Assembly (NCBI GenBank): GCA_016926755.1
Contig: JAFGNZ010000223.1
Coordinates: 1-44,694 of the forward strand
Direction: 5' to 3'
DNA: 44,694 nt
Source: Myxococcaceae bacterium
GTDB lineage: Bacteria > Myxococcota > Myxococcia > Myxococcales > Myxococcaceae
Within the stretch, counting starts at the first letter, position 1, and the number at the start of each line of letters is the position of its first letter. Shown here in pieces: positions 1 through 6,475 of the stretch. Position numbers and translations under genes: made by a program. A model generated the notes under the pieces. The model had not been told where the DNA came from. It searched no databases and worked only from the letters and a program-made list of their open reading frames with translations.

Positions 1-407
1 CGGGCGTCCTGTCGAGACAAGGCAAGTACCCGGAAGCCGAGGCGCTCTTGCGCCGCTCCCTTGCCATTGCAGAGACGGCCCTCGGCGTGGAAAACCCTTC
101 CTTGTCCCCCACTCTCGCCAACCTTGGAGTTGTGCTCGCTGAACAGGCCCGCCCCGCCGATGGCCTGCCTCTACTGGAGCGTGCGCGTCAGATTGCCGTT
201 GCCACGTACGGCCCGAGTCATCCGGAGGTCGCCCAGGTACTGCTGGTCCTCGCTCAACTTCAGTCCGCCACAAACCACCCCGATGCACCCGCCACCGCTC
301 AAGAGGCGCTGGAGATGTTGCTACGTACGCTCGGGGAGGAACATCCCATCGTGCGGGAGACGAGGCCTCTGCTCCTGGCCATCGCCAAGGGGCCATCGGC
401 TCCGTAG
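1..407 (+). CDS. TPR (kinesin-light-chain-type) repeat protein, 3' end only
   Basis: The gene is cut by the left window edge. The reading frame is open from base 3 and ends with TAG at 405-407, giving about 134 visible residues. They form consecutive repeats of roughly 42 residues with the kinesin-light-chain TPR pattern: an A-E-A-L-L-x-R-S-L-A-I helix pair, then G-x-x-x-P-S-L-S-P-T-L-A-N-L-G, then a second L-L-E-R-A-R block and a third. Such repeats are protein-interaction scaffolds, and in myxobacteria they often form the C-terminal half of serine/threonine kinase or NB-ARC proteins. That N-terminal half lies outside the window, so no catalytic role can be assigned. A TTG at 48 could be read as a start, but the coding pattern continues upstream of it without change. 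Confidence 0.75.
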   Translation, partial: GVLSRQGKYPEAEALLRRSLAIAETALGVENPSLSPTLANLGVVLAEQARPADGLPLLERARQIAVATYGPSHPEVAQVLLVLAQLQSATNHPDAPATAQEALEMLLRTLGEEHPIVRETRPLLLAIAKGPSAP

Positions 408-724
408 CAGCTCTGGTTGCGCCGATGCCCAATCTTGTCCGCTTGTCTGACAGGTTGGCGCCATGCGCCCGCGGCAGGGGGCCTGCGGCTCGTCCTTCCG
501 TCGTTCACTGCCTGCTCCGGCCGGGTAGCGCTGGGCTCGATGCGGACAGCCCCCACGCCGCGAAGGTGCACGTGAGCCATACGCCCCCCCGAGCAACCCA
601 TCAGGGAGGCTGCCAGCGACAGGATGTCAGGGGTCTGGTGCATGCTGGACACATGAGCGAGCACATGCACGGGTCATGGGGTGAACAGGTTGCGACGGAG
701 GAAGAGGGGCTGCATCCTCAACCC
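408..724. other. Intergenic stretch, nothing recognised
   Basis: These 317 bases separate the TPR gene from the Uma2-type gene. Open frames exist on both strands, but none shows a convincing ribosome binding site or a recognisable protein. A purine-rich GAGGAAGAGGGG at about 700-711 lies too far upstream of 725 to be an ideal ribosome binding site, though it is the only candidate for that start. No repeat or strong hairpin was seen. Confidence 0.5.
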
Positions 725-1291
725 ATGAGCGACAAGCCACCGCGGCGAGATGCCTCGTATGAAGACCTCGAGGACGTCCCGTCCCACCGCGTGGGGGAGA
801 TCGTCGGCGGCGAGCTGTATGTGAGCCCGCGCCCCGCCCTGCTTCACGCCCGAGCTGCCTTCCGGCTGGGCAGAGCCCTGGCACCTTTCGACGAGGCTCG
901 GGGAAAGCAAGGTCCAGGTGGATGGGTGATCCTCTTCGAGCCCGAACTCCGCCTGAGTGGAGAGGCGCTCGTGCCGGATCTCGCCGGATGGAGGCGCTCG
1001 CGCATGCCGGAGCTCCCCGACGTCGCCGCGCTCACGCTCGCGCCGGACTGGGTCTGCGAGGTGCTGTCACCCTCCACGGAGGCGCTCGATCGGGCTCGGA
1101 AGATGGGCTCGTACGCCCGCGAGGGAGTGAAGCACCTGTGGCTCGTGGACCCGCATCCACGCATGCTGGAGGTGTATCGGCTGGAGGACGGGCGCTGGTC
1201 GCGACTCGGCGCGCACCTGGGAGACGTCTCGGTACGCGCCGAGCCCTTCGAGGCGCTCGACCTGGAGCTGGGCCTCCTGTGGGAGCGCTGA
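725..1291 (+). CDS. Uma2-family (DUF820) PD-(D/E)XK nuclease-fold protein
   Basis: The 188-residue protein has the usual length of the Uma2 family, a restriction-endonuclease-like fold common in cyanobacteria and myxobacteria whose biological role is mostly unknown. Visible family features are the early Y-E-D-L-E...H-R-V-G-E-I-V-G-G-E-L-Y-V-S-P-R-P segment (residues ~10-37), the acidic P-D-L-A-G-W motif (~85-90), the E-V-L-S-P-S-T motif (~112-118) and the D-R-A-R-K-M-G-S-Y-A-R-E-G-V-K-H-L-W-L-V-D-P block (~122-142), which carries the conserved lysine, tyrosine and aspartate. The ATG at 725 was chosen because the family N-terminus follows directly; the frame stays open upstream to 425, but that segment is not family-like. 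It converges on the M19-like gene across a shared hairpin. Confidence 0.8.
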   Translation: MSDKPPRRDASYEDLEDVPSHRVGEIVGGELYVSPRPALLHARAAFRLGRALAPFDEARGKQGPGGWVILFEPELRLSGEALVPDLAGWRRSRMPELPDVAALTLAPDWVCEVLSPSTEALDRARKMGSYAREGVKHLWLVDPHPRMLEVYRLEDGRWSRLGAHLGDVSVRAEPFEALDLELGLLWER

Positions 1292-1310
1292 GCGGCGCTC
1301 CCAGGAGGCC
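1271..1310. terminator. Bidirectional hairpin terminator between convergent genes
   Basis: An inverted repeat spans the Uma2-type stop codon. The left arm at 1271-1288 pairs with the right arm at 1295-1310 over 16 base pairs with one two-base bulge. It lies between two genes that end toward each other (stops at 1291 and 1325). There is no U-tract, so an intrinsic terminator is an inference from placement and stem strength. Confidence 0.55.
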
Positions 1311-1324
1311 TCAAGCCCTGTGCC

Positions 1325-3622
1325 CTACGCGCAGGTGAACGACCAGCGGCAGTTGTTGCTCAGGCACTCCCGATCGGAGCCGCACACCGCGCCGCGGGAC
1401 TTCTTGTTCTGGCACTTGCCGTCGTTCAGGCCCCAGCCGCAGTACTGGGTGCTGCCGCAGTGCGAGTCGCTCTTGCACAGGCACGAGCCCGTGGGGTTGA
1501 TGTAGCAGTCCGCGCTGCAGCGGTCCGTGGTGCACTCCCGGTCCGACTTGCACGTCTGCCCGTACGCCTTCGAGCGCGGCGTGTAGCACCACCCCGTCGC
1601 GTCCGCGCACCCACCGCACGCCCCGGACTGGCACTGCCCATCCCGGCTGCACGCGTCCCAGTTCACCTTCTTCGGCTTGCAGTCGTTGTCCCCAGGCCCC
1701 GGCAGCTCCAGCTCGCAGAAGCTCGCCGAGCCGCAGTCCCCGTCGTCATTGCACACGCACCGGCCGTCGAAGGTGGAGCACAGCACCGAGGTGCACTGAT
1801 CGCTCTGGCACTCCGCGTCGAAGCGGCAGCCCTGGCCCAGCACCTTCGAGTCCGGCGCGTACGCCACGCCGCACACCGTGGGGAACTGCGCCTCGCGCGT
1901 CTCCTTGGAGACGTACGCCGCCACGCCCGTGGTGTCCATGTCCGTGGCCGGATCCGCCATGCCCGAGCGCGTCGTGTTCGCCCGCTCCCACATGCGGATG
2001 AACGTCTCCGCCGAGCTCTCCAGCCCCGCGGTGTTCGCCCCCACGTTCTTCAAGTCGCGCAGCAGATCCGGCAGCAGGCCGATGTGCGCCAGGCCCTTCT
2101 CGTCGAACTCCGTGCCCAGCCGCGCCGGCCCGGAGATCGTCTGCTGGTAGGACTGCACGTCCGCCTCGGCCTGGAACGTCGCCGAGCACGCCCCGTTGGG
2201 CCCGAAGCGCGGCCGCGTCTGCTGGATGAAGCCGTTGAGATCCGCGCCGAACGCCATGTTCACCTTCAGCCCCTGGCGGCCGAACTCGTACAGCTGGGCC
2301 AGCGAGCGCGTGGAGCCGTGGCAGGTGTTGGCCACGCCGGACTTCGTGTACGTGCGCGTCTCCTCGTGCGCCGTGCGCAGGCCGAACATGCCGCCCGTCT
2401 GCCGCAGGTACTTCGCCACCCAGGCCGGCGTCGTCTTCTCGTCATCCGCCAGCTTGGGGTTCACCACCTCGCGGAAGTGGCCGTGGGAGATGAACAGCGG
2501 GTAGTACGTGTTGGCCTGGGAGATGGCGAACGTGTCCTGCACGCTGCGCTCGGACATGTGCGCCAGGTCCACCAGCATGCCCTTGGCCATCATCGCCTGG
2601 ACGAACGACTTGCCCTCCGCCGTCAGCCCCTTGGTGTTGCGGCAGGCCGAGTCCACGTCGAAGCCCAGGGTGAACGAGCCCGTCGTCACCCCGCAGTCGA
2701 AGTCGATGTGGCAGTTCTCCAGGAACTGGGCCGCCTGGAAGATGGCGTTGTGCGGCGCCGCGCCCGCGAAGCGGTTGTCCAGCTGGTGCACCGGCTGGAG
2801 CGAGCGCACCCCCAGTGCGTGGAGGCGATCCAGCTCGGTACGCCAGTCCTTGGTGCCGAAGAGCTTGCTCGTCTCGATGGAGAGCACCATCGCCAGCCTG
2901 CCTGAGGAGATGATCTGCCGCGCGTGGGCGGGCGAGAGCGCGATCTCCACCCAGTCGGTGCGCGCGTCGAAGTCCCGGGCCTTCTGCAGCTGCGCCTCGA
3001 TGTCCGCCATCTCGTCACAGGGGCGCTTGAGGTTCTGGTACGGCAGCGCATTGCAGAGGAAGCCGTTGCTCACCAGGGAGACCATCACCAGGGACATGCC
3101 GCCCTGGTGCGCCTGGCGCAGCCAGCCCTCCCACGACTGCTGGTGGGCGATGGTGTCCCAGCGCGGCCACTCGGAGGGCACCTCGCGCCGGCCCAGGTGC
3201 AGGCCCGTGTCGCCCTGCGTCCCCTCCACCTTCCCGATGAACTCCGAGCCCACCGCGCCGCCAATGCCGAAGAGCGACGCGAGCAGCGGGTTGGTGCCCA
3301 GATCCACCCCGCCCGAGTTGGGGCACAGATCCAGCAGGTTGCTCAGATCCATGCGCACGCGGGCGTGGCTGCTCTCGGGGGCGCCACCATCACAGCGCGC
3401 CAGCGTGCCGGTGTGGCTCCCGTGGAACCAGCCGCCGCCGAAGGCCTCCTCGGCGAACATGTGGTGATGCAGCTCCGCGAAGCCAGGCACGCCCACGCCC
3501 TGCTGGGTGGTGGCGAGCTCCGCGGCCTCCTCCTCCATGATGGGCGCGCAGCCGTGCGCGAGGGCGAGCGTGAACCCGAGACAGAGCAGCCTCGGCAGGG
3601 GGGCACGGGGAAGGTGGTGCAT
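1325..3622 (-). CDS. Secreted M19-like (membrane dipeptidase family) metallohydrolase with C-terminal Cys-rich modules
   Basis: The 765-residue protein starts with a hydrophobic segment ending L-A-H-G-C (Cys25), a weak lipobox, so it is probably exported and perhaps lipid-anchored. Residues ~45-560 resemble the amidohydrolase-like branch of peptidase family M19: an N-terminal E-L-H-H-H-M-F metal site, S-I-E-T (bridging glutamate), D-L-A-H-M-S-E-R-S, F-I-S-H-G-H-F and F-G-A-D-L-N. All expected metal ligands are therefore present. From about residue 590 to the end there are four or so cysteine-rich units of the type C-x5-C-x4-C...C-x-C-x-x-D-x-D-C, like the Dickkopf/EGF-like modules common in myxobacterial extracellular proteins. 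M19 enzymes cleave dipeptides or related amides; the actual substrate here is unknown. The ATG at 3622 precedes the signal sequence. It is divergent from cysD. Confidence 0.75.
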   Translation of the reverse strand: MHHLPRAPLPRLLCLGFTLALAHGCAPIMEEEAAELATTQQGVGVPGFAELHHHMFAEEAFGGGWFHGSHTGTLARCDGGAPESSHARVRMDLSNLLDLCPNSGGVDLGTNPLLASLFGIGGAVGSEFIGKVEGTQGDTGLHLGRREVPSEWPRWDTIAHQQSWEGWLRQAHQGGMSLVMVSLVSNGFLCNALPYQNLKRPCDEMADIEAQLQKARDFDARTDWVEIALSPAHARQIISSGRLAMVLSIETSKLFGTKDWRTELDRLHALGVRSLQPVHQLDNRFAGAAPHNAIFQAAQFLENCHIDFDCGVTTGSFTLGFDVDSACRNTKGLTAEGKSFVQAMMAKGMLVDLAHMSERSVQDTFAISQANTYYPLFISHGHFREVVNPKLADDEKTTPAWVAKYLRQTGGMFGLRTAHEETRTYTKSGVANTCHGSTRSLAQLYEFGRQGLKVNMAFGADLNGFIQQTRPRFGPNGACSATFQAEADVQSYQQTISGPARLGTEFDEKGLAHIGLLPDLLRDLKNVGANTAGLESSAETFIRMWERANTTRSGMADPATDMDTTGVAAYVSKETREAQFPTVCGVAYAPDSKVLGQGCRFDAECQSDQCTSVLCSTFDGRCVCNDDGDCGSASFCELELPGPGDNDCKPKKVNWDACSRDGQCQSGACGGCADATGWCYTPRSKAYGQTCKSDRECTTDRCSADCYINPTGSCLCKSDSHCGSTQYCGWGLNDGKCQNKKSRGAVCGSDRECLSNNCRWSFTCA

Positions 3623-3736
3623 GAAGCGGCTCCTGAGCCGTTGGGGGATGGGCTCACCTCATACGCCTTCCTTTCCATTCTTGGGATCCCATTGATTCAG
3701 GTTTGGGGTGGAATCCGCACAGGCGGTCTGGCGCCG

Positions 3737-3750
3737 TCCGTTATAACGGA
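3737..3750. promoter_or_regulatory. Perfect 14-bp palindrome at the cysDN promoter, candidate operator
   Basis: TCCGTTATAACGGA is a perfect dyad lying 12 bases before the cysD ATG. Its centre contains TATAAC, which could serve as a -10 element, so a bound protein would block or reposition RNA polymerase. It is the only strong dyad in the 140-bp divergent region. Which regulator binds is not known; Rrf2-type or other sulfur regulators are possible. No clear -35 box was found. Confidence 0.5.
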
Positions 3751-3762
3751 TAGAGTGAGCCC

Positions 3763-4668
3763 ATGTCCGCGCGCCTGTCGCACCTCGCGGTGCTCGAGGC
3801 GGAGAGCCTCCACATCCTCCGCGAGACGGTGGCGGAGCTCTCCAACCCGGTGATGCTCTACAGCATCGGCAAGGACTCGCAGGTGCTGCTGCACCTGGCG
3901 CGCAAGGCCTTCCACCCCGCGCCCCTGCCCTTCCCGCTGCTCCACGTGGACACCACGTGGAAGTTCCGGGACATGTACGCCTTCCGGGATCGCTTCACCG
4001 CCCAGCACGGCTTCCGGCTGCTGGTGCACCAGAACCGCGAGGCGCTCGCCGAGGGCATCAACCCCTTCGATCACGGCAGCCAGAAGTACACGCACGCGAT
4101 GAAGACGCAGGCCCTGCTGGAGGCGCTGGCGCTGCATGGCTTCGACGCGGCGTTCGGCGGGGCGCGGCGGGACGAGGAGAAGTCCCGCGCGAAGGAGCGG
4201 GTGTTCTCCTTGCGCGATCGCCATGGGCAGTGGGAGCCGCGCCGGCAGCGGCCCGAGCTGTGGAACCTGTACAACGGCCGCATCGACGCGGGGGAGAGCA
4301 TGCGCGTCTTCCCGCTGTCCAACTGGACCGAGCTGGACGTGTGGCACTACATCCTCCGGGAGCGCATCCCGGTCGTCCCGCTGTACTTCGCCGCCGAGCG
4401 CCCGGTGGTGGAGCGCGGCGGCAACCTCCTCATGGTGGATGACGAGCGGATGCGGCTGAAGCCGGGCGAGCGCCCCATGCTCAAGCGGGTGCGGTTCCGC
4501 ACGCTGGGCTGCTACCCGCTCAGCGGCGCCATCGAGTCCTCCGCCACCACCGTGGAGGCGGTGATCGACGAGCTGGTCAGCGCCCGCCAGTCCGAGCGGC
4601 AGGGGCGGCTCATCGATCATGACGAAGAGGGCTCCATGGAGCTCAAGAAGCGCGAGGGCTACTTCTGA
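3763..4668 (+). CDS. cysD: Sulfate adenylyltransferase subunit 2 (CysD)
   Basis: This is the catalytic subunit of heterodimeric ATP sulfurylase, which forms adenosine 5'-phosphosulfate from ATP and sulfate in the cytoplasm. The 301-residue length is normal for CysD. The PP-loop nucleotide-binding motif appears as S-I-G-K-D-S (residues ~33-38), and family blocks are easily seen: P-F-P-L-L-H-V-D-T (~51-59), [16 protein letters not shown] (~131-146), N-W-T-E-L-D-V-W (~187-194) and the C-terminal R-x-G-R-L-I-D-H-D. The stop overlaps the cysN start by one base, so the two subunits are translationally coupled. A palindrome just upstream suggests repressor control. The ATG has only a weak GAGTGAG ribosome binding site. 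Confidence 0.95.
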
Positions 4669-6377
4669 TGGACACCGCACTCCAACCCGCCCCGGGCCTC
4701 CAGCAGTTCCTCGCCGAGCACGCGCGCCAGGAGCTGCTGCGGCTGGTGGTGGTGGGCTCCGTGGACGATGGGAAGTCCACGCTGATCGGCCGGCTGCTCC
4801 ATGAGTGTGACGGGCTGTTCGAGGATCAGATCTCCTCGGTCCGGCGCGCCACGGCGAAGCGCGCGGCGGCCCAGGGGCTCCAGGCTGCGGCCAGCGCGGC
4901 GCCGCCGAGGGAGGAGGAGATCGACTTCTCGCTCTTCACCGACGGCCTGCGCGCCGAGCGCGAGCAGGGCATCACCATCGACGTGGCCTACCGCTACTTC
5001 TCCACGCCGCGCCGCAAGTTCATCGTGGCGGACACGCCGGGGCACGTGCAGTACACGCGCAACATGGCCACGGGCGCCTCCACGGCGGACGCGGCGGTCA
5101 TCCTGGTGGACGCGCGCCTGGGCGTGCTGGCCCAAACGCGGCGGCACGCGTACATCGCCTCGCTGCTGGGCATCCCGTACCTGGCGGTGGCCGTCAACAA
5201 GATGGACCTGATGGGCTTCGATCGCGCGGTGTTCGAGCGCATCGGCGCCGAGCTGGCCGGGTTCGCCCGGACGCTCGGGTTCACGCAGCTCCGGCTCTTC
5301 CCGGTCAGCGCCAGCCAGGGAGACAACGTCACGCGCCCGAGCGCTCGCACGCCCTGGCACGACGGCGGCACGCTCCTGGGCTGGCTGGAGTCCCTGCCCC
5401 CCCAGCGCCGGCAGGACGAGGCGCCGTTCCGCTTCCCCGTCCAGTACGTGCTCCGGCCGCACCTGGACTACCGGGGGTTCGCCGGGCAGATCGCCTCCGG
5501 CACGGTGCGGGTGGGAGACGAGGTGGTGGTGCTGCCCTCCCAGCGGCGCACCCGGGTGGCGGCCATCGACACCTTCGAGGGGCAGCATGAGCAGCAGAGC
5601 GCGCCTTCCTCCGTCACGCTGCGGCTGGAGGATGAGGTGGACCTCAGCCGGGGGGATATGATCGCCCACCCCGCCCAGCCGCCCCAGGCGCTCCAGCGGC
5701 TCGAGGCGATGCTGGTGTGGTTCGGAGAGCAGCCCTTGGAGCCCGCCCGCCGCTACCTGGTGAAGCACACCACGCGCACCGTCCCCGCGACGCTCGAGCA
5801 GCTCCTCTGGCGCGTGGATCTGGAGCGCCTCACGGAGGTGCCCGCGGAGACGCTGTCGCTCAATGACATCGGCAAGGTGCGGCTGGTGTGCAAGCGCCCG
5901 CTGCTGTGCGATCCCTATCGCGACAACCGGCGCACCGGCGCCTTCATCGTCATTGACGCGCTCACCCATGACACGGTCGCGGCGGGGATGATCCTCGGGC
6001 CCGCGGGGCCGGAGGGGGGCCGCGCCACCGCGGGCTCCCTCGTCACGGCCCGCGAGCGGCGCGAGCAGCTCGGGCAGCGGGGGGGCGTCATCCTCCTTCC
6101 GGAGGCGCCGGAGGCCGAGGAGCGGGCCTTCCAGCTCGAGCGCCACCTGTTCGATCTGGGGCGCCACGTGTCGGTCGTCCGAGGTGACACCGAGGTGGCC
6201 CTGGCGCTGGCGGAGGCGGGGCTGATCGCGCTCGTCCACACCGTGGCACCGCAGGCACGGCGAGCGCTCGAGGAGCAGGCTCGCGACGCGGGGCTCCACG
6301 CGCTCGAGCTGGAGCCCTCTGTGGATCCAGAGCAGCAGGTGCGGCGGATCCTGGCCGCCCAGGATGCCGCGCCATGA
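4668..6377 (+). CDS. cysN: Sulfate adenylyltransferase subunit 1 (CysN GTPase) with a degenerate APS-kinase-like tail
   Basis: CysN is the regulatory GTPase of ATP sulfurylase. The GTP-binding motifs are intact: G-S-V-D-D-G-K-S-T (P-loop, residues ~28-36), D-T-P-G-H (~121) and N-K-M-D (~176), followed by the elongation-factor-like beta-barrel domains to about residue 440. The protein is 569 residues, between plain CysN (~475) and the CysN-CysC fusion (~640). Residues 456-569 align by eye with the APS kinase (CysC) domain: an R-x-x-L-G-Q-R entry, an L-F-D-L-G-R-H-V stretch and an A-E-A-G-L-I-A-L-V block. However, the kinase P-loop is replaced by L-P-E-A-P-E-A-E-E-R, and the region that normally binds APS is missing. 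The tail should not phosphorylate APS. The start ATG lies in a TGATG overlap with cysD. Confidence 0.93.
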   Translation: MDTALQPAPGLQQFLAEHARQELLRLVVVGSVDDGKSTLIGRLLHECDGLFEDQISSVRRATAKRAAAQGLQAAASAAPPREEEIDFSLFTDGLRAEREQGITIDVAYRYFSTPRRKFIVADTPGHVQYTRNMATGASTADAAVILVDARLGVLAQTRRHAYIASLLGIPYLAVAVNKMDLMGFDRAVFERIGAELAGFARTLGFTQLRLFPVSASQGDNVTRPSARTPWHDGGTLLGWLESLPPQRRQDEAPFRFPVQYVLRPHLDYRGFAGQIASGTVRVGDEVVVLPSQRRTRVAAIDTFEGQHEQQSAPSSVTLRLEDEVDLSRGDMIAHPAQPPQALQRLEAMLVWFGEQPLEPARRYLVKHTTRTVPATLEQLLWRVDLERLTEVPAETLSLNDIGKVRLVCKRPLLCDPYRDNRRTGAFIVIDALTHDTVAAGMILGPAGPEGGRATAGSLVTARERREQLGQRGGVILLPEAPEAEERAFQLERHLFDLGRHVSVVRGDTEVALALAEAGLIALVHTVAPQARRALEEQARDAGLHALELEPSVDPEQQVRRILAAQDAAP

Positions 6378-6475
6378 GCTCACTGCCCGCCAAGAAGCAA
6401 GAGGGCCGCAGTCACACGGGGAAGCAGACACAGACCCACGCAACAGGACGCACAGGTCGCGGGCCCCTCGCTGCG

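Follow-up and report, generated by a model that had tools for sequence, protein, structure and literature searches.

A myxobacterial CysN with a C-terminal domain that appears to be a catalytically degenerate APS kinase

Why would a subunit of a bacterial ATP sulfurylase carry at its C-terminus what looks like a kinase stripped of its catalytic parts? The question is raised by the cysDN locus in a stretch of 44,694 nucleotides from a Myxococcaceae bacterium (assembly GCA_016926755.1, contig JAFGNZ010000223.1), which we refer to as the window. An initial inspection of the letters and open reading frames, the sequence-only reading, had proposed that residues 456–569 of the encoded CysN constitute a domain derived from the adenosine 5'-phosphosulfate (APS) kinase CysC, in which the P-loop is replaced and the APS-binding middle is absent. 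Our analysis bears out these three points, and we assign a probability of about 0.6 to the view that this tail is the remnant of the kinase half of a CysNC fusion, retained as a non-catalytic module that would serve the structure or assembly of CysDN.

The core of the window protein matches the CysN profile TIGR02034 over its entire length (positions 1–406 of 406, 545.5 bits at a cut-off of 336.1) and contains an EF-Tu-like GTPase (PF00009, E 4.2e-40), with CysD encoded next to it. Its best full-length profile is PRK05506, which describes CysNC and covers residues 11–507 with 641 bits, compared to only 560 bits for the plain CysN profile PRK05124, although this score stays below the PRK05506 cut-off of 715 bits and the match stops at position 497 of 632. 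If the tail is searched as single sequence, the signal is weak: Pfam reports the APS kinase family PF01583 with E 0.088 and 13.3 bits, below the cut-off of 21.1, PRK05506 is found at E 7e-4, and the best phmmer match in the PDB, at E 0.45, is release factor 1. None of 13 tails, from the window and 12 relatives, matches PF01583 at E 0.01. Ordinary annotation thus misses what the sequence-only reading had noticed, and the weakness of these searches made profile methods necessary.

We have consequently compared families instead of single sequences, using the 13 tails just mentioned (set A1), 12 intact APS kinases, both fused and separate and including two from the window genome (A2), 13 half-decayed relatives selected for the sequence GSGRW, which is for this reason invariant among them (A3), and 31 dead tails without an intact P-loop, 13 of which are of the GRW form (A6). 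Aligned with hhalign, the tails of the window and its relatives match the intact kinases with a probability of 98.2 and an E-value of 5.8e-14 over 101 columns, with a single large gap, and the half-decayed relatives with 5.4e-16, and latter in turn match the intact kinases with 1e-39. CysH from the same operon, which was used as control family, is aligned to the tails with an E-value of 0.53. On its own, the window tail matches the intact-kinase profile with E 1.4e-9, as calculated within the small set of tails, and when PDB chain sequences are searched with the profile of the 31 dead tails, the 19 top-ranking of 23 rows are APS kinases, led by 3uie with an E-value of 1.5e-11. Judged by these alignments, residues 456–569 of CysN share their ancestry with the CysC half of CysNC.

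The segments that have disappeared are those on which catalysis by an APS kinase depends. At the site of the P-loop (GxxGxGKS/T) the window protein contains the sequence LPEAPEAEER, and the large gap in the alignment, about 24 residues long, removes the APS-binding segment LGFS..DRxENIRR. The lid, a conserved GLY followed by NFPG..xPYExP, whose location we have assigned in part from a structural study (PMC4373884), is absent as well, since nothing in the tail corresponds to the part of the intact kinases holding it. Out of 24 columns that are invariant in intact kinases, the window tail keeps L39, A56 and P73 (numbered within the tail), all of them outside the P-loop and the APS-binding motif. 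The LDGD motif of the kinases reads VRGD, with G51 and D52 standing at the position of its GD. From the missing motifs we judge kinase activity to be absent, and the deletion of the binding segments makes canonical binding of ATP or APS unlikely.

A model calculated with AlphaFold2 from the 31 dead tails is predicted with confidence (pLDDT 87.1, pTM 0.79) and in a Foldseek search the best 44 of the 50 matches listed are APS kinases or 3'-phosphoadenosine 5'-phosphosulfate (PAPS) synthetases containing that domain, 39 matches having E-values of 0.001 or lower, with the APS kinase 6b8v on top (E 2.4e-7). In VIA alignments it superimposes on the APS kinase domain of human PAPSS1 with a Z-score of 13.3 and a root mean square deviation (rmsd) of 2.3 over 112 residues, on the APS kinase-like domain of Penicillium ATP sulfurylase (1i2d) with a Z-score of 8.7 (rmsd 3.8, 110 residues) and weakly on that of yeast ATP sulfurylase (1g8f) with a Z-score of 7.8 (rmsd 3.9, 105 residues), a value below 8 possibly reflecting just a common arrangement according to the tool's own note. 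A different picture emerged from the 13 close tails, which yielded a poor model (pLDDT 67.9, pTM 0.55) whose listed structural matches comprise receiver, IIB and lumazine-synthase-like folds and no APS kinase. Since the 13 half-decayed relatives steer the larger alignment towards the kinase fold, both models have to be read together, and the structural comparison, which the sequence-only reading had put forward as a test of its assignment, favors that assignment for the broad set and not for the narrow one. The window tail is thus predicted to adopt an APS kinase fold, of which a compact four-stranded α/β core would be kept. The receiver-like matches of the narrow model and the single-sequence Pfam score below cut-off are what could be cited for an unrelated α/β domain with a chance likeness to APS kinase, an explanation that we find hardly credible in view of the profile E-values with their clean control, the intermediates of many degrees described below, and the confident broad model with APS kinases as top matches.

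The same data bear on the proposal that the domain senses APS or PAPS. In PMC3779200 and PMC13213808, the C-terminal APS kinase domain of fungal ATP sulfurylase is described as kinase-inactive and as binding PAPS as allosteric inhibitor, and a comparable domain in the window protein might bind a sulfonucleotide or adenine nucleotide to tune CysDN, for which the alignments with 1i2d and, weakly, 1g8f as well as the remaining G51 and D52 could be quoted. With the P-loop, the RxENxRR segment and the lid deleted and 3 of 24 kinase-invariant columns left, the sequence lends no support to this suggestion of the sequence-only reading. A Penicillium-like sensor hence appears improbable to us, and less likely than a structural module because the motifs forming the pocket are gone.

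Despite its losses the tail is conserved. It is found in all seven genomes of the genus that were searched, including that of the window, the six others being 78–86% identical to the window over the matched protein. Within the genus, identity to the window ranges from 74% down to 61% in the tail and from 89% down to 82% in the core, and 26 columns are invariant among the 13 close tails. The ratio of nonsynonymous to synonymous substitution rates (dN/dS), calculated for nine sequences with the Nei–Gojobori method, is below 1 for the tail in 36 of 36 pairs. In the 21 pairs within the genus it amounts to 0.19–0.54 for the tail and 0.08–0.30 for the core, and between genera values for the tail reach 0.77. 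The tail is thus under purifying selection, with a constraint that is looser than in the core.

Dead tails are not confined to the window and its close relatives. A scan of contigs based on the 13 close tails detected at least 68 loci, which form a graded series leading from intact CysNC, as in Planctomycetota (L121, L124) and Phycisphaerae (L132), via tails with GLPGSGRW at the P-loop site and without the APS-binding motif in other Myxococcota (L110–L120, L122, L123, L125, L129) to tails without a P-loop in the window's family, Acidobacteriota, Methylococcaceae and Bacteroidota. By family we refer to the window's family within the wide Myxococcaceae of GTDB together with the titled relatives L098–L109, one of which, Archangium, belongs to Archangiaceae according to NCBI. 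The GRW forms are about 157 residues long and are still recognized by PF01583 in 13 of 13 cases scanned, and the tails without a P-loop mostly extend over about 105–125 residues from the start of the match. The scan relied on the patterns LER[RAH]LF[DE][LQ]G and [VT][VA][RSG]GD..E.AL, so that dead tails without them would be missed and the conservation of LERRLFDLG in loci from beyond the window's family partly reflects how these were selected. For two loci, L066 and L203, homology of the tail is unsupported (E 0.08 and 0.03). The survey of myxobacterial CysN tails that the sequence-only reading had called for thus found dead tails in the window's family and half-decayed ones in other Myxococcota.

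To place these tails on a tree, we used the cores of 78 CysN sequences, leaving out L062, L067, L219, L220 and L144, which have long branches, represent a truncated copy of the window or end in a truncated tail; L066, L203 and L218 were dropped after the trees had been seen and are still counted in the quick tree and in the 78-core tree. Rows were classified as intact if they contain both P-loop and RxENxRR, and rows with altered long tails were kept as a partial class outside the strict count, except for L169, whose short tail runs into CysJ. All tail-bearing rows other than a divergent group of five fall into one clade of 67 rows (support 96/90), which holds 66 live or dead APS kinase-type tails and L218 and stands apart from plain CysN. 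This arrangement suggests that the tail originated from a CysNC fusion. The window resides in a clade of 44 rows spanning Myxococcota and Acidobacteriota (100/98), 43 of which carry a tail of the APS kinase type and none both P-loop and RxENxRR; a P-loop of the sequence GLPAAGKS is found without RxENxRR in two of its partial rows, L140 and L154, and as judged from their motifs these tails could be active. Further dead lineages are a trio from Methylococcaceae and Acidobacteriota (L137, L143, L148; 100/100), the Bacteroidota pair L146 and L157 (100/98), and L176 in the divergent group of five. The strict set, in which 47 rows are confidently dead and 16 are intact, requires four changes on the tree and a single clade of dead tails is rejected (p-AU 0.0008); in a broader set of 56 rows the starred branches force at least four changes and a single dead clade is rejected at p-AU 1e-35. 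It is natural to read these changes as losses from an active kinase, although their count in itself gives no direction.

In the relatives of the window, the operon that contains dead-tail CysN reads cysH, siroheme dehydrogenase, SUMT, cysD, cysN, cysJ, cysI and sulfate-binding protein, with the siroheme and sulfate-binding protein names assigned by eye. Among 24 dead-tail loci of the family (at least 10.8 kb each, the duplicate contig L104 excluded), cysH, cysD, cysN, cysJ and cysI are found together in 22, the exceptions being L065, which lacks cysJ, and the window with cysD and cysN only, so that cysH is near the dead-tail cysN in 23. The family also contains plain CysN proteins without any tail, in some genomes, such as G017 and G076, side by side with the dead-tail form. 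Counting one per genome, 32 of 32 retrieved loci with plain CysN contain an adjacent cysC and 31 contain cysD, cysN and cysC, L062 (G053) having cysC and a divergent cysN below the TIGR02034 cut-off only. No cysH was found in the stretches around these 32 genes, which measure 3.3–4.9 kb in 30 cases.

The sequence-only reading had also considered that the dead domain might mark a shift to direct APS reduction. CysH could be typed by its iron–sulfur (Fe-S) cysteines in 54 of 56 places scoring above 139 bits (not in G140, and with G117 being the genome of G195). Genomes with supported tails lacking a P-loop contain CysH of the Fe-S or APS reductase type in 24 of 24 typed cases, as do both genomes with unsupported tails (G025, G180), which fits this idea for the family. 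The type of CysH was considered as a discriminator between live and dead kinases and rejected, since Fe-S cysteines are equally found in the CysH of 13 of 13 typed genomes with intact CysNC (counting L145 despite its CCxxN). Direct APS reduction thus accompanies dead tails and does not distinguish them. Among the partial class with altered long tails, CysH is of the Fe-S type in four of five genomes, as it is for the unclassed L128. In nine typed genomes with the GRW form, three have Fe-S CysH and six a CysH without these cysteines, so that such Myxococcota probably depend on a separate CysC for their PAPS. If fused kinases are counted, 68 of 73 genomes searched contain at least one APS kinase match at E 1e-10. 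The other five are G185 and the genomes of L137, L152 and L160, which have dead tails, and G180, whose tail is unsupported; the completeness of G180 and G185 is 93% and 96%. In the Bacteroidota loci L146, L157 and L162 a separate cysC precedes the dead-tail cysN in the order cysC–cysD–cysN.

The window strain itself departs from this pattern. DNA similarity to the relatives L053 and L098 is confined to positions 3753–6394 (blastn, 87% identity to L053), and the flanking cysH, siroheme, cysJ, cysI and sulfate-binding protein genes were not found at positions 1–3760 or from 6395 onward. 3' of cysN, cysJ is reduced to its initial bases, which encode MSSLPAK as at the start of cysJ in L053 and L098. 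In the genome, no CysH is detected by PF01507, which did match CysD, or by NF002537, and CysI gave no match in a search that was run without a positive control. The six other genomes of the genus each contain a second PF01507 match near cysD, and the six that were read show CC..RK and GC.PCT. The sulfate-reduction operon is thus shrunk to cysDN in the window strain. That the strain itself reduces APS directly was considered and rejected, given a genome without cysH, with no cysI match and with no operon remnant beyond the start of cysJ. The search for a separate cysC that the sequence-only reading had advised revealed two, both above the Pfam cut-off and with 209.7 and 162.3 bits against an NCBIfam apsK cut-off of 138.7, and since cysDN still looks constrained, it probably feeds the synthesis of PAPS. 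The substitution rates give no clear sign of relaxed selection on the window gene after the loss of cysH, cysJ and cysI: dN to L043 is 0.110 in the core and 0.193 in the tail for the window, compared to 0.122 and 0.150 for L041.

What was computed is the homology and predicted fold of the tail, the absence of its catalytic segments, its conservation under purifying selection, the recurrence of dead tails and their operon context, and these results can be joined into the following course of events. After an ancestral CysNC fusion, kinase catalysis may have become dispensable in the lineage of the window, where CysDN would hand APS directly to an Fe-S APS reductase and separate CysC enzymes can supply PAPS, upon which the P-loop, the APS-binding segment and the lid would have been lost; this reason for the loss is our interpretation of the operon context. 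The remaining core would be kept as a module that packs on CysN or pairs subunits in the manner of CysC dimers, and so would maintain a stable or correctly assembled ATP sulfurylase/GTPase complex. The CysC domain of M. tuberculosis dimerizes mainly via helices α2 and α3, according to PMC4373884, and by eye the tail seems to retain in the hhalign alignment the equivalent of α3 and half of α2.

Several results weigh against a structural role. In addition to the poor model obtained from the close tails, the dN/dS of the tail is in none of the 36 pairs lower than in the core, the ratio of the two ranging from 1.0 to about 4. In L214 and L215, which belong to other families, the tails are more eroded and weak (E about 1e-5), as would fit a slow decay, and in L218 (G048), which lies inside the 44-row clade of the window, a different domain without APS kinase signal has taken the place of the tail. 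Moreover, the plain CysN proteins of the window's family show that CysDN as such can do without the domain, and a structural role is what remains once the deletion has made catalysis and canonical ligand binding unlikely. The dN/dS values, the graded series from intact via GRW to strongly shortened tails, and the replacement in L218 would equally be expected of a functionless relic, whose kinase died once PAPS from the CysN protein became superfluous and whose remainder could not yet be deleted without harming the folding of CysN; part of the constraint could stem merely from the avoidance of misfolding. We regard such a relic as a possible though clearly subordinate explanation, against which stand the purifying selection in all 36 pairs, the 26 invariant columns among 13 tails and the APS kinase-type tail in 43 of 44 rows of a clade spanning two phyla. 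Since the tail has been retained for long and similar losses occurred separately in other bacterial groups, the data rather suggest that the dead part still has a non-catalytic job. A platform for docking, on which APS made by CysDN would be handed over to the APS reductase or a separate CysC, would be in line with cysH near 23 of 24 dead-tail cysN genes in the family and with the separate cysC ahead of cysN in the three Bacteroidota loci. It is very improbable in our eyes, as the partner varies between lineages and the tail is kept in the window genome despite the loss of cysH.

The module proposed here differs from each of the known arrangements that it resembles. With CysNC, also named NodQ, where the fused CysC is active, it shares the order of domains, and rows with live and dead tails belong to the same clade of CysN cores, whereas the window tail comprises about 114 instead of about 190 residues. 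The GRW forms of other Myxococcota have an apparently dead CysC tail too and group in the same 44-row clade, but they are longer, recognized by PF01583 and associated in six of nine cases with a non-Fe-S CysH. Plain CysN of the E. coli type has the same core with GTPase and EF-Tu-like domains, ends 6–17 residues past the end of that core, and in the window's family is found at a separate locus beside cysC and on a separate branch of the tree. In fungal ATP sulfurylase an inactive APS kinase domain is likewise fused to the C-terminus, the inactivity in the window protein being deduced from its sequence, and in PMC3779200, PMC13213808 and PMC2275785 the fungal domain is described as PAPS-regulatory in filamentous fungi and as having no defined function in yeast. 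The fungal sulfurylase is unrelated and of the ATPS1 family, whereas the GTPase-coupled CysDN corresponds to ATPS2 (PMC1780047), and the pocket motifs for allosteric binding of PAPS appear to be missing in the window tail. The same 2007 survey separates CysN from NodQ by PF01583, a criterion by which the window protein would probably be filed as plain CysN.

In the open-licence literature, a search that leaves most subscription papers outside, we found no description of an inactive APS kinase domain on CysN. Inactive domains of this kind on ATP sulfurylase are known from fungi, where one of them switches sulfate assimilation allosterically; here a bacterial enzyme that is unrelated and driven by GTP appears to have met the same fate repeatedly and with intermediates of many degrees, and within a single family the enzyme has split into a copy dedicated to reduction, with a dead tail next to an APS reductase, and a plain CysN next to CysC. 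What a dead domain does for its former partner thereby becomes accessible to experiment, for which L105, a record titled Myxococcus xanthus and bearing a CysN tail without P-loop, offers a genetically tractable carrier. A bolder proposal, which we consider doubtful, holds that CysDN has probably four times independently turned the dead kinase into a dedicated module for regulation or assembly, by which the enzyme is marked and tuned for the APS reductase branch; if true, this would be a convergent prokaryotic counterpart of the fungal allosteric domain, in its most reduced form invisible to Pfam.

Table 1. Coordinates of the cysDN locus and of features within the CysN tail, in window positions.
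Feature	Position	Strand	Evidence
cysD, ATP sulfurylase catalytic subunit, 301 aa	3763..4668	+	PF01507 E 4.6e-55; overlaps cysN start
cysN with C-terminal putative pseudo-APS-kinase tail, 569 aa	4668..6377	+	TIGR02034 E 8.2e-164, residues 24-442
Putative pseudo-APS-kinase domain, CysN residues 456-569	6033..6374, then stop codon	+	hhalign; AlphaFold2; Foldseek
LPEAPEAEER, occupies kinase P-loop site	6096..6125	+	hhalign alignment, tail sequence
Junction D52/T53 of tail; about 24 kinase residues including APS-binding segment absent	6186..6191	+	hhalign gap
Lost cysJ, first bases: ATG overlapping cysN stop, MSSLPAK	6374..6394	+	blastn; cysJ of L053, L098

A few observations were made on the side. 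In the window genome, the APS motif of the second CysC (L048:5006-5716) is altered and reads LGDSKDERSTIIRR, and by eye this gene adjoins LarE-, ThiF/MoeB- and JAMM-like genes, perhaps as part of a sulfur-carrier cluster. The CysN reading frame of L218 continues, by eye, into a domain resembling GTP cyclohydrolase II (RibA). The record L104, titled Comamonas sp. KCTC 72670, contains sequence of the window's family and probably stems from a mislabelled genome. Finally, the reading frame of the dead-tail CysN of L169 (3172-6099, G143) extends without interruption into CysJ, which the cysJ profile matches over residues 606–976 with E 8.6e-151, constituting a CysN–pseudoCysC–CysJ fusion in a reading frame that is cut by the end of the locus.

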